Positions 24,749 to 44,145 of a stretch of 64,000 bases of DNA are shown in pieces. This DNA is from Desulfobacula sp. (GTDB taxonomy: Bacteria > Desulfobacterota > Desulfobacteria > Desulfobacterales > Desulfobacteraceae), in the NCBI RefSeq assembly GCF_014237455.1, contig NZ_JABZFL010000096.1, forward strand, positions 1 through 64,000, read 5' to 3'. The notes under the pieces were generated by a model. The model was not told where the DNA came from, searched no databases, and saw nothing but the letters and a program-made list of their open reading frames with translations. A program made the translations under genes and the position numbers. Numbering within the stretch: the stretch's first letter is position 1; the number at the start of each line of letters is the position of its first letter.

Positions 24749-27070
24749 TTAATTGGCTTCCAAAGCAGCAGCAACCACTGCCTGACCTAAACAGATTCCC
24801 CCATCCCCGGTTGGAACCTTTGTGTGTGTGTATACCCTAAGATTATTTTCTTCAAGAGTCCTGATCATCTGTTTCAGGATTATATCATTATTAAATACAC
24901 CTCCTGATAGGACGACCTTTTGTATACCTGTTTCTTTACTCACTCTTAATGTTGCTTTAGTAAAGGCCGCTACCAGTGTATGATGAAACTTTAAACTGAT
25001 TCTGCCGGATGATTCACTCTGTTTCAAATCCTGAGTAATCTGCCGGATACAGGTCATCATATCAATTTCAAATGATCCATCCCTGTCATCATTTTTATTT
25101 TGTACAATATCAAATCCATAGATATCATCTATCAGATTTTTGTCTGCTATGGCTTCCAGTTCCATTGCGGCCTGACTTTCATGGGTAATCTTGTGCCGGA
25201 TACAAAGCAGGGAAGCAACCGCATCAAACAGCCTTCCTGCACTGGATGTCAAAGGAGAGTTCAAGTTTTTCTCCATCATCTGGCATACAAAGGACAGCTT
25301 TCCTTTTTCCATCTGCCTTATATATGGAATATCCAAACTTAAAAAATCATTTCCAAAGGCCTGGTAAAGAACCGACGCTGCCATGCGCCAGGGTTCCAGA
25401 ACGGCAGCATCACCGCCCGGCATCTTGATATATGAAAGGTGCGCTTTTCTTTTAAACTTTTTTTGTGTGCATACAAGAAGTTCCCCGCCCCAGATATGGC
25501 CGTCTGTTCCATACCCTGTACCATCAAGGGTTATGGCAATGACGTCGCCATCAAGATCATTTTCTGCCATACAGGCCGCAGCATGGGCATGGTGATGTTG
25601 AACTGCCACCTTTTTTACATTGTTCTGTGCTTTGGCATAATCGGTACTCATATAGCCCGGGTGCATATCATGGGCAATAATCTCAGGTTGAATGTCGAGA
25701 ATCTGTTTTAAATGATCAATACTGTTTTGATAAAAATCATACACCTTCACATTATCCATATCCCCGATATGCTGGCCTAAAAACACATCATTATCCCGTG
25801 TCAGGCAGATTGTGTTTTTAAGCCCTGCCCCGCATCCCAGAATTTTCGGCATTTTTTTATTTAAAGATATTGGCAAAGGGGCATACCCTCTTGAACGTCT
25901 TATAAATCTTGTCTTCCCTGTCTGAATCCTTGCAATGGAATCATCTGCCCCAAAATAGATGTCCCGGTTGTGCAATAAAAAATAATCTGCAATATGAGAA
26001 AATGCATCCAATGCGTCCTCATTATCAATGGAAAGCGGTTCTCCTGAACGGTTCCCGCTGGTCATCACAAGTACATCAGGCCCCTTTTCAAGCAATAAAT
26101 AATGCAAGGGTGTATAGGGCAGCATGACCCCGAGACAATTGTTAAAGGGGGCCACATCCGGTGCAAGTCCTTTAATATCATCCTGCCTGATATTCTTCTT
26201 GTTCAGCAGGACAATGGGCCTGTGATAGGACTCTAAAAGTTCCTTTTCATCAGAACCTACATGAACATGATCAAACAGATGAGATGCCGATTGAGCCATC
26301 AGGGCAAAAGGCTTATGGGGGCGTGCTTTTCTCAGCCTTAAGCTTTTAACAGCATCCTGGCTGGATGCATCACAGGCCAGATGGAATCCGCCAAGACCCT
26401 TTACGGCAACAATCTTTCCCCGGCTTAAATATTGCGCTGCAAGGATTATAGCCTCTTTTGAATCCGAATAGATCCTTTTGCCCTTATTGTCTGTTAAAAA
26501 AACCTGCGGGCCGCAGTCAGGACATGCATTGGGCTGGGCATGAAATCTTCTGTTTAACGGATCATCGTACTCGCTTTGACAGTCCGAACACATCTTAAAA
26601 TGCTTCATGGACGTTTGAGGCCGGTCATAGGGAATATCTTCAATAATGGTATACCTTGGGCCACAATTTGTACAATTGACAAACGGGTATTCATACCGCC
26701 TGTCGCAGGGATCTTTCATTTCAGCCAGGCAGTCCGGACAAATACTTACATCAGGAGAAATTAAAGTGGTCCGGCTGTTGGAGGCACGGCTCTTCACAAT
26801 TTGAAACAAAGAAAAATTGTGAAGCTCTTCGTCAAAAGGTTCAATCCTTGTCACACAAGCAAGCAAAGGGCTTTTATAATAAATATCATTAATAAAATTC
26901 TCAATATTATCAGGCGGTCCTTCCACAATAACCAGCACGCCGCCGGAGGTATTGGAGACCTCCCCTTTCAAATAATATTTTTTGGCCAGGGCAAATAAAA
27001 AAGGCCGGAAACCAACGCCTTGAACCACTCCGCTGATTTCCAGCCTTTTTGCTGCGATAGAAACTTTCAT
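24749..27070 (-). CDS. hypF: Carbamoyltransferase HypF
   Basis: Makes the carbamoyl group from carbamoyl phosphate and passes it to HypE. 773 residues with all domains in order: acylphosphatase (GVVQGVGFRPF near 15), two zinc fingers (CPDCLAEM...CTNCGPRY; CSDCQSEY...CPDCGP), YrdC-like domain (VKGLGGFHLACDA near 225) and Kae1-like domain (HHHAHAAACMAEN near 482, LSGGVFNN near the end). The ATG is six bases after the hypC stop. Confidence 0.96.
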   Translation of the reverse strand: MKVSIAAKRLEISGVVQGVGFRPFLFALAKKYYLKGEVSNTSGGVLVIVEGPPDNIENFINDIYYKSPLLACVTRIEPFDEELHNFSLFQIVKSRASNSRTTLISPDVSICPDCLAEMKDPCDRRYEYPFVNCTNCGPRYTIIEDIPYDRPQTSMKHFKMCSDCQSEYDDPLNRRFHAQPNACPDCGPQVFLTDNKGKRIYSDSKEAIILAAQYLSRGKIVAVKGLGGFHLACDASSQDAVKSLRLRKARPHKPFALMAQSASHLFDHVHVGSDEKELLESYHRPIVLLNKKNIRQDDIKGLAPDVAPFNNCLGVMLPYTPLHYLLLEKGPDVLVMTSGNRSGEPLSIDNEDALDAFSHIADYFLLHNRDIYFGADDSIARIQTGKTRFIRRSRGYAPLPISLNKKMPKILGCGAGLKNTICLTRDNDVFLGQHIGDMDNVKVYDFYQNSIDHLKQILDIQPEIIAHDMHPGYMSTDYAKAQNNVKKVAVQHHHAHAAACMAENDLDGDVIAITLDGTGYGTDGHIWGGELLVCTQKKFKRKAHLSYIKMPGGDAAVLEPWRMAASVLYQAFGNDFLSLDIPYIRQMEKGKLSFVCQMMEKNLNSPLTSSAGRLFDAVASLLCIRHKITHESQAAMELEAIADKNLIDDIYGFDIVQNKNDDRDGSFEIDMMTCIRQITQDLKQSESSGRISLKFHHTLVAAFTKATLRVSKETGIQKVVLSGGVFNNDIILKQMIRTLEENNLRVYTHTKVPTGDGGICLGQAVVAAALEAN

Positions 27071-27792: not shown

Positions 27793-29538
27793 ATGCCACT
27801 TGCTCCACTTAATGATTTTGAATCAGATAGCCTTGTTTTAGAAAATCGCTATCTCTCTGCTTTTGAAGGTTCATTAACAGCAGGGTATTTTTCGTTTATT
27901 GAGAACTGTTCTAATTCTATAACTTCAAATAAATCCCTTTATTCATTCGAGGATATTAAAAAAATTACATATATCTTCAAATTTCTTAAAGATCAATGGC
28001 TGCTAACTGATAAAGATATCAGGGCTCTCAAGAAAACTGTGTTGGAAAGATTGTTTTTATTATTCCTGACTAAAAAAAAGATTAAGAATAAGAAACAAAT
28101 AATAGATAATTTAGTATACCAAATTGGAGAAAAATGGTGTTTCTGTGAAGAAGACTTCCCATATCTTGATGATGAGGAAAAAAACGATTTAAAGAAAACA
28201 ATCTCTATCTCTCCTTCTAATGAAACAGACTCGATGTTTGCGGATTTAAAATTTGTAAAACGAATTCCATCAAATGATATTTTGCAAATCTTTCCAGACT
28301 TCTTCAAAAAAATTGAAAAAACTTATGCTGATTTTAATAGAAAAATAGACTGCTATAAAAATGAAGACCAAGCATTAATTAAATCAATTTTCATAAGTAT
28401 TATAGAGAATAAATTACAGGAAGATTATCCAGGATATACCAAATTTTTAACATATCAATTCTTTCTGAGCGAAATTGATATAATTAACAATGAGACGTTT
28501 GATATCAGAAATTCAGATTCTGACATGAAAGTAGTCTTCAGAGACTTAAGTTCATGTTATGTAAGTAATAAAATTTATATCAAGAACAGCTCTGATCGAC
28601 ATCAGTCTCTGCCTGACTGGGCGTTATGGTTTTTTAAGGCCGGGCAAAGAACAGCTTTATTACCTGAAAATAATACCGAAATTGTAATTGGCTTTTCTCT
28701 CCCATCTCGATCCTATGCCGCATTGTTTTTTCTGCTTGGGTATGAAACTGAATCAGCAATTAGGCGAATGGGCTTTGATGGTTCTAATAATGAATATTTT
28801 CATTCAATTACTGGAATGGAGCAAAGCACACCACTTCTTATATGGGATAATGACAGGTGGAAAAGGTGTTTTTCAAAAGGGATAATGGAATTTGAAGGGC
28901 AGAAAATGTTTTCTGTAAGTGTCCCGGGAACCGAGAATAGAAGGCACGATAGAATAATTCCTGAAGCTCATATCCATTTGTTTAGAGAGGCCGTTCATCC
29001 AGAAAGGAAAGTCGGTGATCACCAAGTCGGATATGCTATGCGCGGGTTTGATTTTTTTAGGAATTATTACTGTAAAAACGAAAAAAAATTACTGAAATAT
29101 CTTATTGAATCAAAAGATAGATTTACTATAGTCGGGAATAAAACAACCTTAAAAAATGAAATTGATAATCTTCCAGTTTACTTGAATTTGGCTGAAGATT
29201 GGCTTGAGGGTTCAATACAGGATATTATACGCTTAGATAATTATCTGTTTTCTGAATATGATTTGTCAAAAGGGACTGTTCTCAGTTCTGATTCCCTGGA
29301 GGATTCTAATCATCAGTCGGGACTCGTTGTCTTTGATGGTTCAATGCCTTTCCTGAAACATTTTGACGATATTGAATGCGATAAAAAGATTGTATTTCTG
29401 GACCGATGTGACCACCAGTTTTCAACTGCGCGCAACGTATTTATAGACCAGCACTATTCCGATCGTGAAAATGATGAAGAGATGATTTTATTAAAAACGG
29501 TGCCAGAAACTATCGAAATGATCATGTTTGAGGTATGA
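27793..29538 (+). CDS. Unrecognised first protein of the DISARM-like operon
   Basis: 581 residues from ATG 27793; the frame opens earlier with TTG at 27691, but that overlaps the candidate promoter. I do not recognise a domain. The product is soluble and acidic with no signal peptide or membrane helix. Notable segments are IGFSLPSRSYAALFFLLGYE near residue 297 and VVFDGSMPFLKHF near 515. Its stop TGA is followed at once by the ATG of the next gene in the same frame. Position at the head of a DrmA/DrmB operon makes a DrmE-like or accessory sensor role possible, but this is inference. Codon use is AT-rich compared with the hyd/hyp genes. Confidence 0.75.
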   Translation: MPLAPLNDFESDSLVLENRYLSAFEGSLTAGYFSFIENCSNSITSNKSLYSFEDIKKITYIFKFLKDQWLLTDKDIRALKKTVLERLFLLFLTKKKIKNKKQIIDNLVYQIGEKWCFCEEDFPYLDDEEKNDLKKTISISPSNETDSMFADLKFVKRIPSNDILQIFPDFFKKIEKTYADFNRKIDCYKNEDQALIKSIFISIIENKLQEDYPGYTKFLTYQFFLSEIDIINNETFDIRNSDSDMKVVFRDLSSCYVSNKIYIKNSSDRHQSLPDWALWFFKAGQRTALLPENNTEIVIGFSLPSRSYAALFFLLGYETESAIRRMGFDGSNNEYFHSITGMEQSTPLLIWDNDRWKRCFSKGIMEFEGQKMFSVSVPGTENRRHDRIIPEAHIHLFREAVHPERKVGDHQVGYAMRGFDFFRNYYCKNEKKLLKYLIESKDRFTIVGNKTTLKNEIDNLPVYLNLAEDWLEGSIQDIIRLDNYLFSEYDLSKGTVLSSDSLEDSNHQSGLVVFDGSMPFLKHFDDIECDKKIVFLDRCDHQFSTARNVFIDQHYSDRENDEEMILLKTVPETIEMIMFEV

Positions 29539-31098
29539 ATGAAAAGTTCAGCTATTGAAAATATATCTAAACTATATCAGAGTTATACCAATCTTTATCA
29601 AATTAAATTTGATAATAGATATCTTGCTACAATCTCATCAAAAATTTCGAAGCTGTTAAGTAGTTTAGGTGATCTCAGAGAACTCGCCTTCTGGCCGGAA
29701 TTGAGCTCTGCATTGAAGCGGTTTCGTTTTGATCTAACAACAACACCACTACCTTTTTCCTCTGCAGAATTACTATCAGAAAAACTTAGATCCTCTCTGA
29801 AAACAGCTCTTAATTTTGCTTCTCAGTTCCCTGAACAAATTCAGTTAATAAATGAAATCAATGATCTAATCAATAATTTGCCGTCTGAAGAACATCCTTT
29901 TATGACTTGGGTGAAATCTATGATGCTCAATAGGGAGGTGAATGATTCTTTTGCCATTTGCCTCCCAAATGCAAAAAACGTTTTTATTGTTGAAGAGTTT
30001 TTCCGTCAGAGTGAGGATCTCTTTGATTCAAAATGTGAAATACTAAATCCGAGGCAGTTAAAAGAACTTAGATTTTATGATCTGATAGTTTTCTGTGGTT
30101 CAATAAAACTATTTTCAGAAAATCCATTTGCTGATTATGAATATGTTTGGCGCTCTCCCAGGGCCAGGAACCTTTATTTTCTATCTTTCTCATGGATTAA
30201 AGGAGAGTTTAAACCTACCCCAAGTTTTGATGTAAAACCTAACTGCATAGCATTGAAGGAATTTGATGAATATATACCTGATCCAGGGTATAAGTATGTC
30301 AGTGATGATGATATTTTTGAATCGACACCTATTTCTTTCGACGATTATAATTTTTCTCCGGTATCTATTTTAGTTACCAAATCAAACGTACTCCCCAAGA
30401 ACGATTATTCATCGGTATCGGACTGTGAATGCCGAATAGTTTCTTTAGACGATGGTTGTTATCTTTACAAGGATATTGAAAGTTATTCTCATATTGTAAA
30501 TTTTCAGCCGGAAACAGAGGTAAATAAGATTTCGAACAGGCAGTTAGAACCTGGTATGCCGCTGATTGTAAGGACCGAGGGAAGTAATGATTCCATTGCT
30601 GCTGTGGCAGATATGCTTTTAGGGGAACGTGCAGAATTAGTAAGAATGCTGCAAAATGAGTGGAAGATCGCTTTCAGGCGTAAATTGTTTTCATATGAAT
30701 ATTTATCAGATGTTCAATCAGAACTTATCAAATTGGGATCTCTGATAGCAAACGAAAGTAATATAAGAAACTGGAGCAAAGACGAAACTATAAAACCAAA
30801 AGATTATCGGGACTTTGAAGCAATAATGAAATTTTCAGGAATCTCTGAGAGAGCGGAGGTATACTGGAATAATGCAAAATCAATTTTCAAAATGCATGTT
30901 CAAGCTGGTCGAGAAATAAGTAAACTACTTCGATCGAAAATTACAGCCGCCAGTATGAATGAATTCGTTAAATATGGAAAGATTGAAGTTGACCTTCCAG
31001 ATATAGCCGGAAAATTATCAGTGATTCATATTGAAGCGATCTCAAATACAAAATACATAATCAGTTCAAATTCAGTTAATAAATTAATGTACAGTTAA
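29539..31098 (+). CDS. Unrecognised second protein of the DISARM-like operon
   Basis: 519 residues; TTGAGG six bases upstream supports the ATG directly after the previous TGA. No domain is recognised with certainty. The C-terminal half has an orderly helical look with LEPGMPLIVRTEGSND near 348, a Trp-rich NEWKIAFRRKLF near 380 and IRNWSKDETIKPKDYRDFEA near 412. Being in the same frame as the preceding gene, the pair may correspond to one larger protein in relatives; comparison with DrmE, the class 2 DISARM component of unknown function, is the first test to make. The next gene starts four bases later. Confidence 0.75.
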   Translation: MKSSAIENISKLYQSYTNLYQIKFDNRYLATISSKISKLLSSLGDLRELAFWPELSSALKRFRFDLTTTPLPFSSAELLSEKLRSSLKTALNFASQFPEQIQLINEINDLINNLPSEEHPFMTWVKSMMLNREVNDSFAICLPNAKNVFIVEEFFRQSEDLFDSKCEILNPRQLKELRFYDLIVFCGSIKLFSENPFADYEYVWRSPRARNLYFLSFSWIKGEFKPTPSFDVKPNCIALKEFDEYIPDPGYKYVSDDDIFESTPISFDDYNFSPVSILVTKSNVLPKNDYSSVSDCECRIVSLDDGCYLYKDIESYSHIVNFQPETEVNKISNRQLEPGMPLIVRTEGSNDSIAAVADMLLGERAELVRMLQNEWKIAFRRKLFSYEYLSDVQSELIKLGSLIANESNIRNWSKDETIKPKDYRDFEAIMKFSGISERAEVYWNNAKSIFKMHVQAGREISKLLRSKITAASMNEFVKYGKIEVDLPDIAGKLSVIHIEAISNTKYIISSNSVNKLMYS

Positions 31099-31102
31099 AA
31101 CT

Positions 31103-32833
31103 ATGGCCACAATAATTCCTCCAGTTATAGCCGATTATAAATACGATGGCGAACGTAATGTAGCTCTTAAAATAAAAAAGGACTCTAAAGCTAAAGACTG
31201 GATTGTCTTACATTCGCTGGATGTTTCAAAACACATATCTCAAGTAGTGGGAGAATGCGATTTTGTAATAATAATTCCAGGGAAAGGAGTTTTATGTCTG
31301 GAAGTGAAGGGTTGTAAGTCTCTTGCTGTTGATAAAGGCCTCTGGCATTACGGTAAAAAAAGTAAAGGTGACAAAAGAGGACCTTTCAAACAGGCTGCTG
31401 ACAATATGCACAGTATAAGGAATTATCTTACAAATCTCAATTTTGATCTGGGAAAAGTGATTTTCTGGTCTGCTGTTATTTTTCCATTCATATCCTTCAA
31501 AAGGAAGTCTCTTGAATGGAATGACTGGCAAGTTATTGACAGCGACAATTTTAATGCAAGACCTGTTTCTCAGCTATTTTCTAATGTTCTGGATCAGGCA
31601 AGACTGTTGTTAAAGAAGAAAACCGGCATGAATTGGTTTGATCCTTCTTTTAACGGGCCTGATAATGGATTGTGTAGTGTAATCAAAGATATATTAAGGC
31701 CTGAATTTGAATATTACCAGTCACCCTCTTCACGTAGAAAAAAATTATCTGAGAGTTTGAAAAAATATACTTCGGAGCAATTTGTAGCTCTTGATGCAAT
31801 GCAGACGAATGCTATGGTGGTTTTCAATGGTCCTGCCGGTACGGGAAAAACGCTTCTTGCAATAGAAACAGCTCGTAGATCAATGCTTGAAGGAAAGAAG
31901 GTACTCTTTCTTTGTTTTAACAAGAATATCTCGATTTGGATTAAAAGACAGTTTGAACAAGAGGATCTAGAAAAAATTACTATATCGACTCTTCATGCCC
32001 TAATGTTAAAGGTTTCAGGTTTAAAAATGGAAAGTAATCCTTCTTCAGATTTCTGGTCAAAAACATTACCAGAAGCTGCGATTGAGAAAATATTAAACTC
32101 AGATGGAACTGATGTTGAGGCTTATGATTTTTTAGTGTTGGATGAAGCTCAGGATGTTCTTAGAGATGAATATCTTGATTTTATTGATCTGCTGTTAAAG
32201 AAGGATCTGTCTGATGGATATTGGAAGATATTTGGGGATTTTGATAATCAACAAATTTATTCTGCTTCTGACATAAAATTGATGGATTTCATAACACACC
32301 GCTGCCAAGGTACTCCTGTTTATACTTTGGGTATTAATTGCAGAAACACACCTAGGATCGCCGAATATGCACATTTGCTTGGAGGGCTTGATCCTGAGTA
32401 TCAAAATATTCTCAGGCCTGATGATAAGGTTAAACCTGAGTTGAAGTTTTATGACAATGATGATGAGCAGGCTGATATCTTAGCGAATCTTCTGGATAGA
32501 TTTCGAACTAAGGATAAATATAAAAATGAAGAGATTGTAATCCTTTCACCAATTTCAAACTCATGCTGTTCGAAAAAATTAAAACCCCCTTGGGATAAAC
32601 GAGTCGCTGTATATTCCCCTGAAGAAAGTGTGCATAATAAAATCAGTTATTGTACCATACACGCTTTCAAAGGGCTGGAGACTCCTGTTGTAATAGTTAC
32701 TGATATGGATAGAATTCAACATATTGAAACAATAAACCTATTATATATTTCAATAACTAGGACTCTCTCAAAGCTTGTTATTTTATTGAATAATTCGGCT
32801 CGCGATGATTTAAAACAAATACTTGGAGTGTAA
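31103..32833 (+). CDS. NERD-domain nuclease fused to superfamily 1 (UvrD-like) helicase
   Basis: 576 residues. The N-terminal ~150 residues look like a NERD domain, a PD-(D/E)xK nuclease relative, with CDFVIIIPGKGVLCLEVKG near residues 52-70 giving Asp and the E-x-K pair. A P-loop helicase follows: Walker A GPAGTGKT near 243, Walker B FLVLDEAQD near 345, and C-terminal TIHAFKGLETPVVIV and LLYISITR like UvrD motifs V-VI. It probably unwinds and may cut DNA. It lies between the two unrecognised proteins and DrmA with gaps of four and two bases, so it is an integral operon member; this component is not part of the classical DISARM definition. Confidence 0.85.
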   Translation: MATIIPPVIADYKYDGERNVALKIKKDSKAKDWIVLHSLDVSKHISQVVGECDFVIIIPGKGVLCLEVKGCKSLAVDKGLWHYGKKSKGDKRGPFKQAADNMHSIRNYLTNLNFDLGKVIFWSAVIFPFISFKRKSLEWNDWQVIDSDNFNARPVSQLFSNVLDQARLLLKKKTGMNWFDPSFNGPDNGLCSVIKDILRPEFEYYQSPSSRRKKLSESLKKYTSEQFVALDAMQTNAMVVFNGPAGTGKTLLAIETARRSMLEGKKVLFLCFNKNISIWIKRQFEQEDLEKITISTLHALMLKVSGLKMESNPSSDFWSKTLPEAAIEKILNSDGTDVEAYDFLVLDEAQDVLRDEYLDFIDLLLKKDLSDGYWKIFGDFDNQQIYSASDIKLMDFITHRCQGTPVYTLGINCRNTPRIAEYAHLLGGLDPEYQNILRPDDKVKPELKFYDNDDEQADILANLLDRFRTKDKYKNEEIVILSPISNSCCSKKLKPPWDKRVAVYSPEESVHNKISYCTIHAFKGLETPVVIVTDMDRIQHIETINLLYISITRTLSKLVILLNNSARDDLKQILGV

Positions 32834-32835
32834 AT

Positions 32836-35800
32836 ATGGATACCGAGTCTGTACATATCGAGAACAGAAATAAACTGGTTCGATTTTTAAAATCAGAAAT
32901 CATGGGGCCGTGCAAGGTCGGAGAACCCCTTGACTGTTCTGGCAGCATCCATTTTGAAAGCTGGAAAGATGCAAATAAACCCTGGATTCAGAAAGAGTCT
33001 CTTGATGAAATTATAAAAAAGGAAACACCAATTAACCGGTATGGTATTGGTGTTCTGTATCCCCCCAGTATAAGCCATGATGAAATACAATCTTCTGATG
33101 TCGAAGCAGCTGAAGATTCATTAGGAATTGAAACGGAAACGTCTGTTGAAATTAATTCAGTTGGCAAATCTGACAATGTTGCCAGCGATACCGATGATTT
33201 TGATTTATCCCTGACGAATACTGTTCAGCCTTCAAGTATGGGTATAAGCTTTTTAGCTGAACTTCCTGAGAATTCCAAAATTATCGTAACCGTAAATACG
33301 GGTAGATACGTTCCAAAAGAAGTTACAATAGGAGAGGCTGCCAGGATATGGTTTTTCAGGGAAGCTATCTCAATACCCGAATTGTCTTCACCCTCTGAAA
33401 ATATTAAAAATAGTTCGTTTGTAAAAATTGGGGAGAGGAAATTTGATAACGGCTTGAAATTTTCAGTGGAATGCTTTTCACGCCCTGATATTTATTCAAG
33501 TCAGAAAAACAGAGCTGACAAGCGTCTATTAACTGTATGTCTCGTGAATAGAACAGAACGGCAGGCATCAAGTGCTTCGGAACAGAGCCAGCTGACTCTT
33601 TTCCAGTCGAATCTTTCTTTAAAAATACAAGGTGGTAGAATTTTACCTTATCCTGAGGCTGAGATGGATGTAAATGCTGATGATATTGAATTAAAATCGT
33701 TTAGGCTTTTATATAACAAGAAAAAAACTTTTGCCGTTGGTCATGGTTGTGCAGCCAGTTGGGATGACAGTTCACGGGAACCTCCTGAAAATCTTATTGC
33801 CGATCCTCTTCCTCAATATGAAATTCCCAGTATAACCCCTGATGCTATTGATTCTAATGGTAACCTTTTAAAGATATCGATGTCTGTTTTATCTGGCCTT
33901 GAACCTGGACTGTTTGAATTGCTTGAGACCTTTATATCTGAATATCTTAACTGGATTTCTAAAAGATCTGACGAAATTCCTCTTCTAGAGGAAGACTTAC
34001 AGGACGTGGCTGATGATCATGTATCAAATGCTGATATATGTGCACAAAGAATGCGGGATGGTCTAAAATTTTTAAAAGAAGAGGAAACGGCCCTCAAAGC
34101 TTTTCAGCTTGCCAATAAGTCCCTCTTTATGCAGCAGATTGCAGGTGATGGAAAACGGCTTTTTGACTATGACAGAGCGAATCATAGAAACATTTTCAAT
34201 CCACCTTATAAAGAAATCAACTTTGAAAATATTCCAAAAAATGCAGGTTACTGGCGAGCATTTCAAATAGCTTTTATTTTGATGTCCCTTCGTTCAGCTG
34301 TTTTGAATTGCGAAACGAGAAATGATGTAGAGTTAATATGGTTCCCAACTGGTGGAGGAAAAACAGAAGCGTATCTGGGGTTGGCCGCTTTCACAATGTT
34401 CTATAGACGTTTTCAGAAAGCAGATGATGATGGTGTTCATGTATTGATGCGTTACACTTTGAGATTGTTGACAACTCAACAGTTCCAGAGAGCCAGCAGA
34501 TTGATATGTGCCATGGAAAAAATACGGCAGGACATAGGTGGTTTAGGTGAAAAACCTTTTTCCATAGGTATATGGGTCGGGAGTGCCAATACACCCAATA
34601 AAAGAGCTGCTGCTAAAATAGCCTTAAGGAAGTTAGAGACAAATCGTTATTCCGAAAATCCATTTATTTTAAGACAGTGCCCATGGTGCGGTGCTGAAAT
34701 GGGAAGAATTATTATTAGGGGGACAACCTATATTCGTGGCTATAAATCTAGAGGTAATACAGTCACCTTCAAGTGTCCGGATAAAAAATGTCCTTTTCAC
34801 AAGAACCTTCCAGTGCATGTAATTGATGAAGAAATATATGAGAATAGACCCTCTTTGATAATTGGAACGGTAGATAAATTTGCCATGCTATCCTGGATTC
34901 CTGCATCTGGCTCTCTCTTTGGAATTGATATTCATGGAAAACGAGTGAAACCACCACCAGGATTGATTATACAAGACGAACTACATTTGATATCAGGACC
35001 TCTTGGAACAATGGTCGGTCTTTATGAAACCATAATTGAAGAGTTGTGTACCCATGAAGAGAATAATGTTAAAATTAAACCAAAAATAGTATGTTCAACT
35101 GCTACTATCAGGCGTTATCAGGATCAAGTCAAATCCCTTTTCGCACGTAAAAAAACAAATCTTTTTCCACCGTCGGGTCTGGATGCTGGTGATTCTTTTT
35201 TTGCTCGATATGCAGAGAGTGAAGATGGAAAACTCAAACCGGGTCGCAGGTATATAGGTATTTACGCCCCCGGTTTACCTTCAATGCAGACTTTACAGGT
35301 CAGGGTGTATTCTGCACTGTTAATGGGTGCGATGATGTTTGATGGTATTGGAACACGAGATCCATGGTGGACTTTACTCGTTTTCTTCAACAGTATCAGG
35401 GAGCTGGGTGGAGCATTGTCTCTTTTTCAGACGGATATACCCGGTGCGATAAAAGGGATTGCTGCCAGGCATGGATTTACAGAAAAACGATTTTTGAATA
35501 GAGTCCTGGAATTAACCAGCAGGATGACGAATGAAGAAGTTCCGTTAGCGCTCGAAGAACTGTCGCGTAAATACTCGGGTAAAAATGCCCGTTCGATTGA
35601 TGTATGTCTGGCTTCAAGTATTATTGAAGTAGGAATAGATGTAGACCGACTTACATTGATGTCAATAGTTGGCCAACCTAAAACAATGGCTCAATATATA
35701 CAGGTGTCAGGTCGTGTTGGAAGGAAATGGTGGGAGCGTCCAGGGCTTGTGACGACCCTTTTCAGCAGCAGCAAACCGAGGGATAGATCTCATTTTGAAA

Positions 35801-36276
35801 AATTTCAAAGTGCCCACAGTCAGATGTATGCACAGGTAGAACCTACAAGTGTCACTCCTTTTGCACCTCCTGTTATTGACAGGGCTCTGCATGCACTTTT
35901 TGCTGTTTATTTAAGATTAATGGGTTCTAAAGAAGCTTCAAGCAAGCCAACTAATGTTGACCCTGTCTTAATTGAAAAACTTAGAAATATTATAAAAAAT
36001 AGAGTGATATTTGTTGATGAAAATGAACTTTCCTCTGTCATGAAAAAATTTGAGACAAGATTGAAACAGTTTAACAAATGGCAGAGAACTTGGTGGGAGA
36101 AACAACAGGAACAGCCAGACAGCCTTCTGAGACGATATGAAACGTGGGTAACGTGGGACATCGAGCAGACTTCATGGGCAACCCCAACATCAATGAGAAA
36201 TGTTGATGCGGAATGTCAAATGGATATAACTAATATGTACAATATATATAATGAACTTGAAGAAGAGGATGAATAA
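32836..36276 (+). CDS. drmA: DrmA-like DISARM helicase (superfamily 2)
   Basis: 1146 residues. Helicase motifs: WFPTGGGKTEAY near 502 (I), MRYTLRLLTTQQFQR near 538 (Ia), QDELHLISGPLG near 714 (II, DELH form), CSTATIRR near 755 (III), SIIEVGIDVDRL near 934 and QVSGRVGRKWW near 956 (V-VI). A zinc-binding insert (CPWCG...CPDKKCPF) lies near 614-655. This arrangement and the downstream DUF1998 gene identify the DISARM DrmA type, an ATP-driven DNA helicase implicated in recognising or processing phage DNA. It overlaps drmB by one base (TAATG). The N-terminal ~450 residues are not recognised in detail. Confidence 0.85.
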   Translation: MDTESVHIENRNKLVRFLKSEIMGPCKVGEPLDCSGSIHFESWKDANKPWIQKESLDEIIKKETPINRYGIGVLYPPSISHDEIQSSDVEAAEDSLGIETETSVEINSVGKSDNVASDTDDFDLSLTNTVQPSSMGISFLAELPENSKIIVTVNTGRYVPKEVTIGEAARIWFFREAISIPELSSPSENIKNSSFVKIGERKFDNGLKFSVECFSRPDIYSSQKNRADKRLLTVCLVNRTERQASSASEQSQLTLFQSNLSLKIQGGRILPYPEAEMDVNADDIELKSFRLLYNKKKTFAVGHGCAASWDDSSREPPENLIADPLPQYEIPSITPDAIDSNGNLLKISMSVLSGLEPGLFELLETFISEYLNWISKRSDEIPLLEEDLQDVADDHVSNADICAQRMRDGLKFLKEEETALKAFQLANKSLFMQQIAGDGKRLFDYDRANHRNIFNPPYKEINFENIPKNAGYWRAFQIAFILMSLRSAVLNCETRNDVELIWFPTGGGKTEAYLGLAAFTMFYRRFQKADDDGVHVLMRYTLRLLTTQQFQRASRLICAMEKIRQDIGGLGEKPFSIGIWVGSANTPNKRAAAKIALRKLETNRYSENPFILRQCPWCGAEMGRIIIRGTTYIRGYKSRGNTVTFKCPDKKCPFHKNLPVHVIDEEIYENRPSLIIGTVDKFAMLSWIPASGSLFGIDIHGKRVKPPPGLIIQDELHLISGPLGTMVGLYETIIEELCTHEENNVKIKPKIVCSTATIRRYQDQVKSLFARKKTNLFPPSGLDAGDSFFARYAESEDGKLKPGRRYIGIYAPGLPSMQTLQVRVYSALLMGAMMFDGIGTRDPWWTLLVFFNSIRELGGALSLFQTDIPGAIKGIAARHGFTEKRFLNRVLELTSRMTNEEVPLALEELSRKYSGKNARSIDVCLASSIIEVGIDVDRLTLMSIVGQPKTMAQYIQVSGRVGRKWWERPGLVTTLFSSSKPRDRSHFEKFQSAHSQMYAQVEPTSVTPFAPPVIDRALHALFAVYLRLMGSKEASSKPTNVDPVLIEKLRNIIKNRVIFVDENELSSVMKKFETRLKQFNKWQRTWWEKQQEQPDSLLRRYETWVTWDIEQTSWATPTSMRNVDAECQMDITNMYNIYNELEEEDE

Positions 36277-38195
36277 TGGCAAAAAGAGGTCCCTTAAGAC
36301 AATCGCAAATCATAGCCCCTTTTGGCCCAGGCGCGATGCATACCGATAGATTCGGTATTTCACTTATCTGCTGTGGTCTGGATCACTGGTTCAGTCAGAT
36401 AGAGAATGACAGCGACTGTGAAGAGTTCAAGATAGATGATGAATGGCGAATAAACCGGAGTTTAGGAGTGGATCATCTCAGAAAACCACCGGATTTCAGA
36501 AGAGGCATCCCGGGTGTCGAAGTACCTAATGTGGGCCTTACTATCCCTTTTCTCAGATTTCCTACATGGCATTATTGCAGTAACAGCTATTGCGGGCATA
36601 TGGAAAAAACTGTGTTAACGTACCAAGGGTTGAAAAAACAAAATATATGTCCAGTATGTCAAGCAAAGAATTCTAAAAAATTTCCTATGGTACAGGTTAG
36701 ATTTGTTGCCGTGTGCGATCATGGCCATATTCATGATTTCCCGTGGAATGAATGGGCACATCAAGAACCTGCTCCCAGCTGCGGGGAGAACAGCTTGAAA
36801 TTAATAGAGTATGGTGGAGGGACTCTGGAAAGTATTGAAGTGAGCTGTACAAAATGCGGAAAGAGACGAAAGCTTGGCGGGATAACGTCTAATGATTTAG
36901 CCATAAGAGGAGGCCTACTTCAATGTGGCGGGCAGCGTCTATGGCTCCATGATACTGATGGATCTACCTGTGGAAGACCCTTAAGAGGTGCACTGAGGAA
37001 TTCTTCAAACATCTATTTTTCCCAGATTTTCAGCTCAATATTTTTGCCCAAAACTGCTGGTAAAGCTCAAGAAGATGACTCGGATAGTGAAGAAATCAGG
37101 CATCTTATTGAAAAACCGAAATTTTCTGACCTTATCGATATACTTTCCAACTTAGGTCTGCCACCAGATAAAATATTGGAAAGTCTAAAAAATAAACACG
37201 GAAAATATTTTGAAGAATATGAAGATAATCAGTTAATAACAGCTTTAAAATTTTATCTGGACAATGGAGGTGATAATGATCAAGGTGATGGTGATGATTC
37301 CTACGATCGAATCAGTTTTAGAAAAGAGGAGTATAATATCCTTTCAGAAGAATGGGATGGGCCTTTCCTGAAATCTGAAATAGCAGATTTAAACGATTAT
37401 TCGGATAATATATCAAGAATATTTTCGAAAATAATGTTGATTAAAAAACTGCGTGAAACGAGAGTTTTTACTGGATTTACAAGATTGATACCACCTCGTG
37501 AACAGAACCTTTTTGAGCTTAGAAATAATTTATGGCTTAATCCCCCCTCATTATCAGATTCCTGGTTACCCGCTTCAATTGTCAATGGGGAAGGTTTGTT
37601 TTTTGAATTTAACCAGCTTTCTTTAAAAAAATGGCTTGAAGGCTCAGACAAGGAGAAAATTGAAAATCGAGTTTTAAATCTTCGTACCAATTATGAAAAT
37701 GCTACTTCCGAGAGAGGAAGTTTTGAAGTTCTTAACGAGCTACATCCTGTATTTATAGTTATTCATACGTTTTCTCATCTTTTAATGAATCAGCTGACGT
37801 TTGAATGTGGCTACAGTTCTGCCTCGTTAAGAGAAAGGCTTTATTTCTCTACAGATAAGGACAGTCCCATGGCAGCTCTCTTGATTTATACGGCAGCAGG
37901 TGATTCTGAAGGTACAATGGGGGGGTTGGTACGTATGGGGCAACCAAAACTTTTTGAGCCTTTATTGAAAGATGCTGTAAGAAAATCACAGTGGTGCTCT
38001 GCAGACCCAGTGTGTATGGAACTCGGTGATATGGGGGGGCAGGGTCCATATTCCTGTAATCTCGCAGCTTGTCATAATTGTGCACTCGTTCCTGAAACAT
38101 CCTGCGAAGAATTTAACCGATTTTTGGATAGAGGCGTTACCACGGGCACTGTTGATAACAGAGCGCTTGGTTTTTTGAATTTTCTTTTTGATTAG
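36276..38195 (+). CDS. drmB: DrmB-like protein with DUF1998 domain
   Basis: 639 residues. N-terminal PFGPGAM motif, Cys clusters CSNSYCGH...CPVCQ near 107-132 and CTKCGKR near 194, and a C-terminal DUF1998 region: HTFSHLLMNQL near 497, AALLIYTAAGDSEGTMGGL near 530, and CNLAACHNCALVPETSCEEFN near 595. DrmB accompanies DrmA in all DISARM classes and binds it in vitro according to published work. The ATG shares a base with the drmA stop, so translation is coupled. An acidic linker lies near residues 325-345. Confidence 0.87.
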   Translation: MAKRGPLRQSQIIAPFGPGAMHTDRFGISLICCGLDHWFSQIENDSDCEEFKIDDEWRINRSLGVDHLRKPPDFRRGIPGVEVPNVGLTIPFLRFPTWHYCSNSYCGHMEKTVLTYQGLKKQNICPVCQAKNSKKFPMVQVRFVAVCDHGHIHDFPWNEWAHQEPAPSCGENSLKLIEYGGGTLESIEVSCTKCGKRRKLGGITSNDLAIRGGLLQCGGQRLWLHDTDGSTCGRPLRGALRNSSNIYFSQIFSSIFLPKTAGKAQEDDSDSEEIRHLIEKPKFSDLIDILSNLGLPPDKILESLKNKHGKYFEEYEDNQLITALKFYLDNGGDNDQGDGDDSYDRISFRKEEYNILSEEWDGPFLKSEIADLNDYSDNISRIFSKIMLIKKLRETRVFTGFTRLIPPREQNLFELRNNLWLNPPSLSDSWLPASIVNGEGLFFEFNQLSLKKWLEGSDKEKIENRVLNLRTNYENATSERGSFEVLNELHPVFIVIHTFSHLLMNQLTFECGYSSASLRERLYFSTDKDSPMAALLIYTAAGDSEGTMGGLVRMGQPKLFEPLLKDAVRKSQWCSADPVCMELGDMGGQGPYSCNLAACHNCALVPETSCEEFNRFLDRGVTTGTVDNRALGFLNFLFD

Positions 38196-38203
38196 GTAAT
38201 AAT

Positions 38204-40255
38204 ATGGATTTAAACAATACAACACTTACAGATAAACTGCTTCAAAATATTAATCGAGAAATTGAAGATATAATAAATCACTCTGATGAAAATACTTCAT
38301 GGGATGATAAATATGCAGAATTAATGATTGAACACCTTACCGAAGCAGCTGAAATAGATGATGGGGAAATCTGTGAGCATAAAAGACGGGAAATAAAAAT
38401 CAATGGCTATAGCTATGGAGCAGATATCGATTCGATTGATCTGTTTTCTGTGTTTTGCAGCAGGAAATGCCCCTCAGTTTCAATAAGCAAAAAACAGATT
38501 CAAATCGAATTGAATAAAGCACTGAACTTTCTGAATAAATGTCTGGATGATGGATATTTTAACCTGATTCCTGAGGTCTCTCCAGCTCTGGATCTTGCTC
38601 TGCTTTTACATGAACGGCGGAAAAAATTAAAAGAAGTGAGAATTTTTCTATTCACGGATTGCAGATGTAAGCCCGTTTCTTTTTCAGATATCGAAAAAGG
38701 TCATCTGAAAATTTCCTTTCATGTTTGGGATATTCAAAGGTTCGTACAGATAATAAGCTCCGGCAGCAAAAGGGAGACAATTGAAATTGATTTTAAAAAA
38801 GACTTCAAGACAACAATTCCCTGTCTTGAAATTGCTGACAGTAACACTGACTACAAAACAATTCTGGCCGTGTTTCCTGGAACTGTCCTTGCTGATTTGT
38901 ATAAAAAATATAATGCCCGCCTTCTTGAAAGGAATGTACGTGCATTTCTTCAGGCAAGAGGAAAAGTTAATAAAGGAATCAGGGTAACTCTTAATACCGA
39001 ACCGGAGATGTTCCTTGCTTATAACAACGGAATTACAGGTACTGCTGAAAGTATAGTTCTGGAAGATTCTGAGGACGGCGGTAAAAGGATTACATATTTG
39101 AAAGATTTCCAGATTGTCAATGGAGGTCAGACAACGGCATCTTTATACCACACCCGAAAAAACGACAAAGCTGATTTGTCTTCAGCATTTATTCAGGCCA
39201 AGTTATGCATTATCAATGATCAAATCAGGCTCGATAAAGTTGTTCCATTAGTTTCTAGGTATTCGAATAGTCAAAATAAAGTGAATGAAGCAGATTTCTA
39301 TTCAAATGACCCATTTCATGTCGAGCTTGAAGAGCTGTCGCGCACAATCTGGGCACCGGCCCCAAGTGGATCTAATCAACTTACACACTGGTTCTATGAA
39401 CGTTCCAGAGGACAATATAATGATGAAAAATCAAAGCTGACACTGGCTCAGAGACGGACCTTTAATAGAGAGAATCCTACCCGGAAACGTTTTGTAAAAA
39501 CCGATCTGGCGAAGTTCGAGAATACATGGCTTCAGATACCATGGATAGTAAGTCTCGGGGCTCAGAAAAATTTCAGAGATTTTACAGCGCGTCTTAGTGA
39601 AAGAAAAGGTTTTAAAGCAAATAAAGAGTATTTTCAGAAATTGGCAGCCAAAGCGATTCTTTTTAGAGAAACTGAAAAAATAGTTTCCAGTCAGAAATAT
39701 GGAGGTTATAGGGCACAGATAGTTACTTATTCTTTAGCTTGGCTTTCTTTTTATTCATATCAGCGTATAGATTTGGGAAAAATATGGAAAAATCAAACTC
39801 TGAGTGAAGACCTTTCAGAAGCGATAAGAAAAATATCAATTACAGTACACGCTCATATCACTGATCCACCAGGTGGAAGGAATATTACCGAATGGTGTAA
39901 AAAGAAAGAATGTTGGGAAGGACTTAAAGAACTTGACATACCGATTAAACTTTCCGATATATCCTCGGATCAAATTGCTTCAAAAGGATACAGGGCCAGT
40001 GTCCCTGAAAGAGGGATCGATGGGCCTGATGAAAATGATGAAAAACTAATTACGGAGGTGATGAAAACCCCATTTGAGAAATGGTTTGAAATTGCCCGAT
40101 GGGCGAAAGAAACTGATAACTTACAAGCTTGGCAGAGAAGTATCTCTTTCAGCATTGGCAAACTCCTTGCCCGGGGTAAAAAACCCTCACGGAAACAGGC
40201 TCTTCAGGGTAAAAGGATTGTTGATGAAGCTAAAAAACTGGGTTTTCCTGTTTAA
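38204..40255 (+). CDS. AIPR-family abortive-infection protein
   Basis: 683 residues. The AIPR signature is clear: FLAYNNGITGTAE near residue 268, FQIVNGGQTTASLYH near 303, SNSQNKVNEADFYSNDPFH near 355, and a later domain with KTDLAKFENTW. AIPR proteins are associated with abortive infection and occur next to cytosine methylases and Vsr nucleases in other restriction-like loci; their activity is not established. Here it occupies the position where a DISARM locus would be expected to carry the phospholipase-D protein DrmC, which I do not find. It starts eight bases after drmB and ends two bases before the methylase. Confidence 0.85.
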   Translation: MDLNNTTLTDKLLQNINREIEDIINHSDENTSWDDKYAELMIEHLTEAAEIDDGEICEHKRREIKINGYSYGADIDSIDLFSVFCSRKCPSVSISKKQIQIELNKALNFLNKCLDDGYFNLIPEVSPALDLALLLHERRKKLKEVRIFLFTDCRCKPVSFSDIEKGHLKISFHVWDIQRFVQIISSGSKRETIEIDFKKDFKTTIPCLEIADSNTDYKTILAVFPGTVLADLYKKYNARLLERNVRAFLQARGKVNKGIRVTLNTEPEMFLAYNNGITGTAESIVLEDSEDGGKRITYLKDFQIVNGGQTTASLYHTRKNDKADLSSAFIQAKLCIINDQIRLDKVVPLVSRYSNSQNKVNEADFYSNDPFHVELEELSRTIWAPAPSGSNQLTHWFYERSRGQYNDEKSKLTLAQRRTFNRENPTRKRFVKTDLAKFENTWLQIPWIVSLGAQKNFRDFTARLSERKGFKANKEYFQKLAAKAILFRETEKIVSSQKYGGYRAQIVTYSLAWLSFYSYQRIDLGKIWKNQTLSEDLSEAIRKISITVHAHITDPPGGRNITEWCKKKECWEGLKELDIPIKLSDISSDQIASKGYRASVPERGIDGPDENDEKLITEVMKTPFEKWFEIARWAKETDNLQAWQRSISFSIGKLLARGKKPSRKQALQGKRIVDEAKKLGFPV

Positions 40256-40257
40256 CT

Positions 40258-41835
40258 ATGAGAACTGTTGCTGTTGTAGATCTGTTTGCTGGTCCGGGTG
40301 GCTTGGGGGAGGGTTTTTCCTCCGCAAGTGACGATAATGGAAATTCTGTTTTCAAAACTGTTCTTTCCATCGAAAAACAGATAGAAGCACATAAAACTCT
40401 TCTGCTAAGAAGTTTTTTTCGAAAATTTCCAAAAGGTCAAGTCCCCTCTGAATATTATAGCTACTTGAGGGGCGAAATTGACAGCCAGGAAACTCTTTTC
40501 AGTTTATATCCAACTGAGTTTAACAAAGCTAATGACGAGGTCTGGTGTGCAGAACTGGGTTCGTCTGACTCGTTAAACAAAAGAATTGATGAAAGAATAA
40601 AATCTTTAAAAAAAGATTATGGAGATCGATGGGTTCTTATTGGTGGGCCGCCATGTCAAGCCTACTCTGTCATTGGTCGTTCAAGAAATAAAGGAATAAA
40701 AGATTATATACCCGAAGAAGATCCCAAAAATTATTTGTACAAAGAATATTTAAGGATCATTGCCAAGCATTTGCCTACTGCTTTTATCATGGAAAATGTT
40801 ACGGGGATGCTTTCTGCCAAGGTTAATGGCAAATCGATTTTTGAGAAAATTCTCAGTGACTTAAAATGTCCACTCAAAACATTACAAGGTAGTGATAATC
40901 GCAATGCTGAGTTCGAAGATGATTATGAAATTTATCCTCTCATCATGCCTGAAAAGGGTGATGCAGTGACTCCTGAGTTTTCAAATCCAAGAGATTATAT
41001 AATCAAATCGGAGGAGTTCGGTATTCCACAAAGGAGACACCGTGTTGTTCTGTTTGGTATCAGAAGAAAATATTCATTTGGAAGGCCTGATACACTTAAA
41101 CCAAGCAAGAAGGTCACAACCGTTGTAGAAACGCTCAGTGATCTGCCAAAACTGAGGAGTGGATTATCAAGGAGTAAAGATTCAGCCAAAAAATGGAAAA
41201 AGCGTGTACTTCAACTCGGAAATAATAAATGGTTCCTTGAATATATCAAGCGAGATGGTGATATTCAGAACTGTCTTGTAGAAACTCTTAAAAAAATAGA
41301 AAAATCATCAGATTTAGATACTGGTGGTCAGTTTGTTCAAGGTAAATTTAATGGCAAAATGATAAATTCATGGTGGTATAAAGATAAAAAATTGGATGGG
41401 GCATGTAATCATCAGAGTAAATCCCATATGACGTCGGATTTACACCGTTATCTTTATGCAGCATGCTATTCCAAATGTTTTGGTGTATCCCCCAAAATCC
41501 TGGAGTTTCCAAAAGAATTGATACCAAAACATAAGAATGCTCGAAGCGGTAAGTTCAACGACAGATTTCGTGTTCAAGTTGATAATATACCCTCAACTAC
41601 TGTAACCAGTCATATTTCAAAAGATGGTCATTATTTTATTCATTATGACCCAATACAGTGCAGAAGTTTTACCGTAAGAGAGGCAGCAAGGCTCCAGACA
41701 TTTCCCGATAATTATTTTTTTGAAGGAAGTCGAACCCAGCAGTACATTCAAGTCGGTAATGCGGTTCCTCCTCTACTGGCATTTCAAATTGCCGGAGTGG
41801 TATTTAAAAGTTTAAAAAAAGCTGAAATGTTGTAA
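40258..41835 (+). CDS. C5-cytosine DNA methyltransferase
   Basis: 525 residues. Motif I VVDLFAGPGGLGEGF is at the N-terminus, catalytic motif IV GGPPCQAYS near 131 with nucleophile Cys, ENV in MENVTGML near 179, motif VIII PQRRHRVVLFG near 258, a target-recognition region, and motif X QVGNAVPPLLAF near 500. It would methylate host DNA to mark it as self, the role of DrmMII in class 2 DISARM. The sequence recognised cannot be read. Vsr follows three bases after the stop. Confidence 0.92.
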   Translation: MRTVAVVDLFAGPGGLGEGFSSASDDNGNSVFKTVLSIEKQIEAHKTLLLRSFFRKFPKGQVPSEYYSYLRGEIDSQETLFSLYPTEFNKANDEVWCAELGSSDSLNKRIDERIKSLKKDYGDRWVLIGGPPCQAYSVIGRSRNKGIKDYIPEEDPKNYLYKEYLRIIAKHLPTAFIMENVTGMLSAKVNGKSIFEKILSDLKCPLKTLQGSDNRNAEFEDDYEIYPLIMPEKGDAVTPEFSNPRDYIIKSEEFGIPQRRHRVVLFGIRRKYSFGRPDTLKPSKKVTTVVETLSDLPKLRSGLSRSKDSAKKWKKRVLQLGNNKWFLEYIKRDGDIQNCLVETLKKIEKSSDLDTGGQFVQGKFNGKMINSWWYKDKKLDGACNHQSKSHMTSDLHRYLYAACYSKCFGVSPKILEFPKELIPKHKNARSGKFNDRFRVQVDNIPSTTVTSHISKDGHYFIHYDPIQCRSFTVREAARLQTFPDNYFFEGSRTQQYIQVGNAVPPLLAFQIAGVVFKSLKKAEML

Positions 41836-41838
41836 GTT

Positions 41839-42243
41839 ATGGATACTCTTTCTCCAGAAAAAAGAAGCTGGAATATGTCACGAATTAAAAATCGTGATAC
41901 CAAACCTGAGATTGCTGTCCGTTCACTTTTACATAGGATGGGATATCGTTTCAGGCTTCATAGAAAAGATCTTCCCGGCAAGCCAGATATTGTATTACCT
42001 AAATACAGGACTGTCATATTGGTTCATGGGTGTTTCTGGCATCGCCATGAAGGTTGTAATCTGGCATATAAAGTTAAAAGTAATGTTAAAAAATGGGAGG
42101 CAAAATTTGCACGCAATGTTGAAAGAGATAAAACAAAAAGAAATAAGCTATTGGAACTTGGTTGGCAGGTTAAAATTATTTGGGAATGTGAAACGAAGGA
42201 CAAAAAGAAGTTAAAACAAATAGTCCATGATTTTTTTCAGTAA
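41839..42243 (+). CDS. vsr: Very-short-patch-repair-type endonuclease (Vsr)
   Basis: 134 residues, the size of the family. Residues equivalent to the E. coli Vsr active site are present: Glu24, Asp50 (GKPDIVL), His63 (VHGCFWHRH) and Trp67-His68, with the NVERD helix near 95. Vsr nicks T-G mismatches made when 5-methylcytosine deaminates, so it fits beside a cytosine methylase. Within a defence operon it could also act as the nuclease, which is inference. It is the last gene of the tightly packed operon. Confidence 0.92.
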   Translation: MDTLSPEKRSWNMSRIKNRDTKPEIAVRSLLHRMGYRFRLHRKDLPGKPDIVLPKYRTVILVHGCFWHRHEGCNLAYKVKSNVKKWEAKFARNVERDKTKRNKLLELGWQVKIIWECETKDKKKLKQIVHDFFQ

Positions 42244-43017: not shown

Positions 43018-43311
43018 TTACATCAAATTCTTATCGATATCCATTTTCCCATGCAAAATACCAATGATATCAATGTGACTACCTGAGTTTAAATAGAAGA
43101 TGATGTGTTTCTGTGCAGGAAAGGAATAATATCCGGGCGAAATTTCAGGTCGTTGTCTTCCAAGTTCCGGATTAGCCGCAAGTTGATTAAGCTTGTCTTC
43201 GATTTCCTGAAGATATTTTTCAGCTTGTTTCTCACCCCAGATCTCAACAGAATAATTCCAGATTTCAATTAAATCTGATTTTGCGGAAGGAGTGAGGCGG
43301 TATTTACGCAT
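43018..43311 (-). CDS. parE: ParE/RelE-family toxin
   Basis: 97 residues from ATG 43311. The layout RLTPSAKSDLIEIWNYSVE...ELGRQRPEIS...FPAQKHIIFYL...IIGILH is that of ParE toxins, which act on DNA gyrase; RelE-like ribosome action is an alternative within the superfamily. It overlaps the end of parD by eight bases. Confidence 0.88.
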   Translation of the reverse strand: MRKYRLTPSAKSDLIEIWNYSVEIWGEKQAEKYLQEIEDKLNQLAANPELGRQRPEISPGYYSFPAQKHIIFYLNSGSHIDIIGILHGKMDIDKNLM

Positions 43312-43552: not shown

Positions 43553-43702
43553 ACTGCCCTCCTTATCTAAGAGACATTTACATATCATAATAACAAAACT
43601 ACAAACATTGTCAATCTTTGGAAATATCCATTGTTGCGTTCAAGTGTCTATTATGTTGCCAAACCATTATTCAAAAAATAGCGCTGGATTCTTTTATTGG
43701 TA

Positions 43703-44142: not shown

Positions 44143-44145
44143 TTT

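Follow-up and report, generated by a model that had tools for sequence, protein, structure and literature searches.

An eight-gene DISARM-related operon without DrmC in Desulfobacula, with a NERD-SF1 helicase and a probable split DrmE

A stretch of 64,000 nucleotides from Desulfobacula sp. (contig NZ_JABZFL010000096.1, positions 1 to 64,000; hereafter the window) carries eight co-directional open reading frames (ORFs) on the + strand, at 27793-42243, that are related to the defence system DISARM (defence island system associated with restriction-modification). An original prediction made from the sequence alone had described these eight same-strand genes and the gaps between them (0, 4, 2, -1, 8, 2 and 3 bases), and all of its coordinates and gaps were reproduced; the eight-gene operon is real. 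Its genes are the following:

27691/27793-29538, + strand: ORF1, probable N-terminal half of a split DrmE, without a Pfam, PADLOC or NCBIfam match
29539-31098, + strand: ORF2, probable C-terminal half of a split DrmE, with a putative RecA2-like domain and helical insert followed by DrmE_C (Pfam DrmE_C)
31103-32833, + strand: NERD nuclease domain fused to a superfamily 1 (SF1) helicase (Pfam NERD, UvrD_C_2)
32836-36276, + strand: DrmA, superfamily 2 (YprA-type) helicase (PADLOC DrmA)
36276-38195, + strand: DrmB, DUF1998/MZB zinc protein encoded as a separate gene (NCBIfam DrmB_fam)
38204-40255, + strand: AIPR family protein, MzaE-like (Pfam AIPR, AIPR_N)
40258-41835, + strand: C5-cytosine DNA methyltransferase, DrmMII-like (Pfam DNA_methylase, PADLOC DrmMII)
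41839-42243, + strand: Vsr, very-short-patch mismatch endonuclease (Pfam Vsr, NCBIfam vsr)

Pfam, PADLOC and NCBIfam profiles back the family calls that had been made for the last six genes. In particular, the DrmA and DrmB calls, whose failure in a profile search had been named beforehand as a ground for refutation, survive that search. DrmA scores 702 bits with the PADLOC DrmA profile and carries the motifs PTGGGKT, DELH and QVSGRVGR, and DrmB scores 430 bits with NCBIfam DrmB_fam (cut-off 240). When compared with PDB sequences, DrmA has a sole match at E ≤ 0.001, the DrmA of 7s9v (E 8e-141), and DrmB a sole match at E ≤ 0.01, the DrmB of the same entry (E 1.5e-66); we take both chains to be Serratia proteins. 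The NERD-SF1 protein scores 48 bits with Pfam NERD and 37 bits with UvrD_C_2, each above its cut-off, and matches no PDB sequence at E ≤ 0.001. Its residues D53, E67 and K69 form a D-x13-ExK pattern, and its SF1 part has GPAGTGKT and DEAQD. Its top PADLOC match is RTasNERD-Hel (139 bits), a profile listed under DRT systems, so this type of NERD-helicase effector may be common to several defence systems. The methylase (Pfam DNA_methylase, 155 bits) has DrmMII as its top PADLOC match (318 bits) and shows PPCQ, ENV and QRRHR motifs. Vsr, with PDI and GCFWH motifs, scores 109 bits with Pfam Vsr and 147 bits with NCBIfam vsr, above the cut-off in each case. The AIPR protein scores 340 bits with Pfam AIPR, 112 bits with AIPR_N and 427 bits with NCBIfam MzaE, the last being under its cut-off of 1050, and has no meaningful match among PDB sequences.

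The conservation of the operon was assessed in other genomes. A DrmA alignment run against species genomes matched at least 595 stretches, at least 534 of them relatives, of which the best 80, the nearest to the window by DrmA, form the locus set (81 loci when the window is included). Locus genes were taken as the longest non-overlapping ORFs, by which a real gene may be lost to an overlapping ORF, and one locus (L008), a duplicate of L011, was excluded from the locus counts and the tree. The contiguous order ORF1-ORF2-NERD-DrmA-DrmB is found in 34/80 loci, and 9/80 have the contiguous order long DrmE-NERD-DrmA-DrmB, with a single long protein at the place of ORF1 and ORF2. Apart from ten loci without NERD that are weighed below, the remaining 27/80 are cut at contig ends, have a broken gene, leave one gene unlabelled or show a different order. 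NERD lies directly 5′ of DrmA in 59/81 loci, DrmB directly 3′ of DrmA in 77/81, and the NERD catalytic pattern is kept in 60 of 64 NERD helicases. The continuation DrmB-AIPR-methylase-Vsr occurs in 0/80 loci. Thus the expectation of a conserved eight-gene order holds for the five-gene core and fails for the full set. In a survey of relatives, the window genome shares its gene order with genome G046.

In a quickly built tree of 105 DrmA rows, a 71-row group contains 64/65 split rows (SH-aLRT 99), a second group of 19 rows contains 14/19 long-DrmE rows (SH-aLRT 100), and the five class 1 DISARM rows have a group to themselves (SH-aLRT 99). Three rows that combine a long DrmE with DrmC fall outside both the split and the long-DrmE groups, and the DrmA of the operon stands in a group apart from these sampled DrmE and DrmC rows. 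The NERD-bearing rows carry organism labels from 15 phyla. Phage records contain no DrmA match at E ≤ 1e-10, and the E. coli genomes searched contain no near DNA match. Proteins of the ORF2 type are rare: at E ≤ 1e-10 they are found in 5/395 genomes of the phylum, and they occur in 2/58 relatives, the own genome counted in both. When viral contigs were scanned with an ORF2 alignment of four rows, 0 of 31 pattern matches were confirmed. Other plasmid DrmA-DrmB operons were seen in L123, L124, L125 and L130, where UvrD- or AAA-type genes and matches to the NERD-helicase profile adjoin DrmA-DrmB; in L124 and L125, DUF2357, Vsr and a C5 methylase are present too.

ORF1 and ORF2 had been listed as two unrecognised proteins. 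This description still fits ORF1, for which the three profile libraries yield zero matches; it no longer fits ORF2, which matches the curated Pfam family DrmE_C at 30.2 bits (cut-off 27), although no PDB sequence matches it meaningfully. In iterative searches of the 80 loci, ORF1 and ORF2 are separate adjoining genes in most loci where both are visible, and a single protein of 780-897 aa replaces the pair in 11/80. Profile alignment with hhalign places ORF2 on the C-terminal half of the long DrmE proteins (P 3.5e-35 and 1.5e-26) and ORF1 on the N-terminal half (P 1.1e-6, probability 91; in a pooled set P 8.9e-8, probability 94; in a second set that includes the class 2-type locus L110, P 8.3e-5, probability 61), and crossed controls with the ORF halves swapped are unmatched (P 0.19 and 0.59). 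Because of the DrmE_C match, the long proteins and this ordered alignment, ORF1 and ORF2 together are probably a split DrmE, and the hallmark of class 2 DISARM, which had been thought missing, is then probably there in two pieces. L110 itself has one DrmE of 759 aa (PADLOC DrmE, 677 bits) together with DrmA, DrmB and DrmC (183 bits), and in four loci from the same class-wide search (L111, L113, L115, L116) the gene after a long DrmE-like protein encodes a NERD helicase.

In the window, ORF1 and ORF2 share a reading frame, the TGA of the first being directly followed by the ATG of the second. Both genes share one frame in five other pairs as well, but the frames differ in 49/55 split pairs, which makes a true gene split more probable than an in-frame stop codon; TGA readthrough joining the two ORFs and a recent frameshift as the cause of the split were both rejected on this count. 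ORF1 homologues elsewhere have 304-383 aa, which puts the start of the conserved part in ORF1 close to an in-frame ATG at 28525 (337 aa, about 28525-29538). The N-terminal extension of about 244 aa is specific to the window, and 27793-28530 has a GC content of 28%.

Structure models, which resemble the RecA domains of helicases, suggest what kind of protein the two halves form. The AlphaFold2 model of ORF1 has a confident core at residues 261-581, with blocks at a predicted local distance difference test score (pLDDT) of 67-98, and the model of ORF2 has a mean pLDDT of 84. For residues 6-247 of ORF2, the 50 matches listed by the VIA structure comparison are helicases by title, bar seven unnamed chains from spliceosome or pre-ribosome entries. 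The best are DRH-1 (Z 11.5, root-mean-square deviation (rmsd) 4.5, 201 aligned), MDA5 (Z 11.2, rmsd 4.9, 206 aligned) and Hef (Z 10.8, rmsd 3.6, 197 aligned). The best match of ORF1 is a chain of the small-subunit processome (Z 8.5, rmsd 4.5, 160 aligned), in a best-scoring group with ZorD (rmsd 3.9, 163 aligned) and RIG-I (rmsd 2.8, 115 aligned); since Z 8.5 is near the level that VIA calls common, the fold of ORF1 is the weaker claim. A Tudor-like insert at residues 337-411 of ORF1 matches the Tudor domain of UvrD (Z 7.8, rmsd 2.2, 65 aligned). The fold lists mix RecA1 and RecA2, and we infer from gene order that ORF1 is RecA1; a fold missing from the VIA lists is no evidence against that fold.

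A pattern search found Walker A, DExx and arginine-finger motifs missing from nearly all ORF1 and ORF2 homologues. The Walker A pattern occurs in 1/60 ORF1, 1/67 ORF2 and 2/20 long proteins, as against 106/106 DrmA and 64/64 NERD helicases, and the pattern Q..GR..R occurs in 0 proteins of the three DrmE sets, as against Q..GR.GR in 70/106 DrmA (motif counts include the duplicate L008). ORF1-ORF2 is thus likely a helicase-like protein without a motor, a pseudo-helicase.

The original prediction described the operon as lacking DrmC, and this is borne out: PADLOC gives no DrmC match among the eight proteins, and one PADLOC DrmC model finds nothing at E ≤ 1 in the whole genome (97.8% complete), the same model matching in 9/14 control genomes. 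The possibility that ORF1 or ORF2 is a hidden DrmC was rejected by the PADLOC search of the eight proteins, and the profile check of these two left no DrmC homologue between them. The genome holds two PLDc_2 proteins elsewhere (frames of 1143 and 460 aa). Among the other loci, jackhmmer with the DrmC of L110 gave strong matches in L110 and L114 and marginal ones in L120 (E 0.0011) and L018 (E 0.0032, 736 aa, with a phospholipase D (PLD) motif). A further run labelled ten proteins as DrmC, six of which lie directly after DrmB in classical-type loci (L110, L114, L126, L127, L131, L133). The other four (L015, L018, L019, L121) are longer and lie on the opposite strand or kilobases off, the one in L121 adjoining DrmB on the opposite strand; they were treated as PLD-like candidates and not counted as DrmC.

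Of the 81 loci, window included, 56 have a gene labelled as C5 methylase close to the core. Among these methylases, PPCQ-like and ENV motifs are present in 37 and ENV with QxRxR in 18; the remaining one is a fragment (127 aa, L063). In ten genomes searched, C5 methylase matches numbered only 1-3 per genome, and some of these are pieces of the same gene, so the proximity of methylase and core appears far above chance. Vsr is found in 23/81 loci, with a methylase in 23/23, and the two flank the core on opposite sides in 7/23. An HhH-GPD glycosylase stands near the methylase in 7 further loci and in 0 with Vsr (Fisher p 0.034, the loci not being independent), and 26 methylase loci have neither; an 83-aa glycosylase fragment in L074, with no methylase nearby, was left out of the 7. 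The loci with HhH-GPD near the C5 methylase are L011, L014, L015, L020, L033, L059 and L069, all by jackhmmer, with Pfam run as well on L011, L014, L020, L059 and L069. These glycosylases possibly substitute for Vsr in repairing T:G mismatches. Because Vsr occurs only with the methylase and HhH-GPD takes its place elsewhere, Vsr is probably the repair partner of the methylase and not a DrmC substitute, and its proposed membership in a nuclease set that replaces DrmC is wrong or overstated. A Vsr label also stands beside the class 2-type L110, which has DrmC.

AIPR, present in only 7/81 loci, reads as an occasional accessory and is known from restriction operons too; the idea that it replaces DrmC is wrong or overstated. 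AIPR is commonly encoded in restriction-modification operons, and cytosine methylases and Vsr-type nucleases occur in MORC operons (PMC2292703); an AIPR/Z1 system resembling mza has also been described (PMC9523054). AIPR relatives occur in 19 plasmid records. In the four regions examined, all adjoin genes annotated as ATP-binding, Z1 and PD-(D/E)XK, and a C5 methylase and Vsr are close in 2/4. Two AIPR relatives were also seen on viral contigs (L139, L140). Near the core of other loci there are NaeI-type restriction enzymes, in L019 (Pfam), L021, L025, L027 and the cut L060 (jackhmmer) and L005 (annotation), and one of MvaI/BcnI type in L034.

How does the operon compare with known systems? 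DISARM class 2, the PADLOC type II, consists of DrmA, DrmB, DrmC, DrmE and DrmMII (PMC9252829). The operon shares with it DrmA, DrmB, a DrmMII-like methylase and the probable DrmE, here in two genes, as well as the order DrmE-DrmA-DrmB; it differs in lacking DrmC, in the split of DrmE, in the NERD-SF1 helicase inserted between DrmE and DrmA, and in having Vsr and AIPR. As class 2 calls for DrmC in the passages of PMC9252829, the operon is not class 2 as defined there. With class 1 (DrmD, DrmMI, DrmA, DrmB, DrmC) it shares homologous DrmA and DrmB as separate genes, but it has no DrmC, a cytosine methylase instead of an adenine methylase, and neither DrmD nor DrmMI among the eight proteins (PADLOC) or the jackhmmer-labelled window ORFs. 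MZA-like and MORC-type restriction operons, built from AIPR, Z1, an ATPase, a nuclease, a C5 methylase and Vsr (PMC2292703, PMC9523054), have AIPR, C5 methylase and Vsr in common with it. However, Pfam, PADLOC and NCBIfam find neither a Z1 protein nor a MutL-like (MutL/MORC-type) ATPase among the eight proteins, and the DISARM helicases stand there instead.

A preprint on YprA helicases (PMC12458937) names the systems ARMADA, BRIGADE and TALON and states that DISARM typically has DrmC; DrmE and AIPR do not occur in its main text, and its passages mention NERD for TALON. TALON resembles the operon in placing a YprA-family helicase and a NERD nuclease together, but TALON has an ARMADA-like helicase with TPR-CSD and TBP genes, whereas the operon has a DrmA-type helicase with a separate DrmB and joins its NERD domain to an SF1 helicase in one protein. 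Other partners have been mentioned for DISARM-like operons (PMC10270631, PMC11090510). DISARM together with a NERD domain was found nowhere in the literature searched, which omits most subscription papers. The claim that no named system has this exact gene set is upheld, none having matched in the profile libraries and that literature. We conclude that the five-gene core represents a widespread, coherent DISARM variant of which no description was found within the same bounds.

Taken together, it is fairly probable that the operon encodes a DISARM-type anti-phage system, from a DrmE-bearing lineage without DrmC, joined to a cytosine methylation module. DrmA-DrmB would load onto and translocate along incoming unmethylated phage DNA, as published for DrmAB and carried over here by homology: DrmAB binds 5′-overhang DNA, its ATPase is lower on methylated DNA, and DrmC is dispensable in the DISARM systems tested (PMC9142583). 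The split DrmE could assist DrmAB without being a motor, as a scaffold or as a sensor of DNA ends. The NERD-SF1 helicase would stand in for DrmC as the effector, unwinding and cutting the DNA once it is engaged, a role suggested because its position is fixed, its motifs are intact and DrmC is missing. The C5 methylase would mark host DNA as self, Vsr would repair the T:G mismatches that arise from deamination of 5-methylcytosine, and AIPR may be an accessory effector common to other restriction operons. Of the predicted DISARM variant in which NERD, Vsr and AIPR replace DrmC, the relation to DISARM and the lack of DrmC stand, and the roles given to Vsr and AIPR probably do not. A bolder generalisation, toward which we lean rather less than away, would make DrmE a motor-less helicase of Hef/RIG-I architecture that serves DISARM as a sensor or clamp and that, in a large bacterial lineage, is split at the RecA1/RecA2 boundary and coupled to a NERD-SF1 effector replacing DrmC, a third and widespread DISARM class.

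Several observations weigh against the reading of the operon as a DrmC-less DISARM lineage with a split DrmE and a NERD effector. Ten of the 80 loci, mostly from Bacilli and cyanobacteria, have ORF1-ORF2-DrmA-DrmB without NERD, so NERD is not obligatory, and, the loci having been selected by nearness to the window DrmA, their proportions do not carry over to DISARM as a whole. DrmA scores 882 bits with NCBIfam DrmAS, under the cut-off of 950, and the split locus L065 is placed in the long-DrmE tree group. The two PLDc_2 proteins could act in trans, and the rarity of AIPR among the loci counts here as well. On the side of DrmE, Foldseek matched neither half to a PDB structure at E ≤ 0.001 (its best E values being 2.3e-3 and 2.2e-2), the split-ORF2 profile misses L063 and L084 among the 11 long proteins, and another of the 11 (L080) is truncated at a contig end. 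Moreover, ORF2 has no match to the PADLOC DrmE models, and the link of ORF1 to the N-terminal half of DrmE is of moderate strength, given the hhalign probabilities of 91 and 94 and of 61 in the L110 set. These last two points would also suit an account in which ORF1-ORF2 is not DrmE but an independent helicase-like pair of proteins brought in next to DrmAB; we think this highly improbable in view of the curated DrmE_C match, the long proteins that occupy the same operon place and the alignment of both halves in order.

A different question is whether one system is present. The operon could be shared by two neighbours that work apart, a five-gene DISARM variant and a restriction-modification-like module of AIPR, methylase and Vsr, as the plasmid neighbourhoods of AIPR, the 0/80 count for the continuation after DrmB and the restriction enzymes near some other cores would have it. 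Yet C5 methylases appear to accompany the core far more often than their number per genome leads one to expect, methylase and Vsr can be found on opposite sides of it, and the genes that would make up the second module follow DrmB in the window with gaps of 8, 2 and 3 bases; we regard this arrangement as unlikely, while still giving it some weight. A joint replacement of DrmC by NERD, Vsr and AIPR, as first proposed, would fit the absence of DrmC, as searched in the operon and with one model genome-wide, and the classing of NERD and Vsr alike as PD-(D/E)xK nucleases (PMC12458937). It is nonetheless very unlikely, because Vsr keeps to loci with a C5 methylase and cedes its place to HhH-GPD in seven of them, many NERD loci have no Vsr, and L110 has the Vsr label despite its DrmC.

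The preferred reading, a DrmC-less DISARM lineage, bears on several questions about these systems. DNA degradation without DrmC has been called a mystery (PMC9142583), and a lineage without DrmC that has a helicase-nuclease in its operon offers a direct candidate for this step. For DrmE, the literature passages describe no fold or role; a dead helicase fold in two subunits would make its function testable. Where the methylase of these loci is paired, it is with Vsr or with a glycosylase and never with the two at once, a pattern that suggests an answer to the mutational cost of cytosine methylation. Finally, tools that demand DrmC, such as the PADLOC type I and II definitions given in the passages of PMC9252829, would miss these loci as those types.

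Around the operon, the 5′ side (19484-27070) is occupied by NiFe hydrogenase and maturation genes (HycI, AIRS-type, HypD, HypF). On the 3′ side of Vsr, the region 43018-44445 contains a ParE-type toxin gene and more small ORFs on the - strand that resemble toxin-antitoxin partners.

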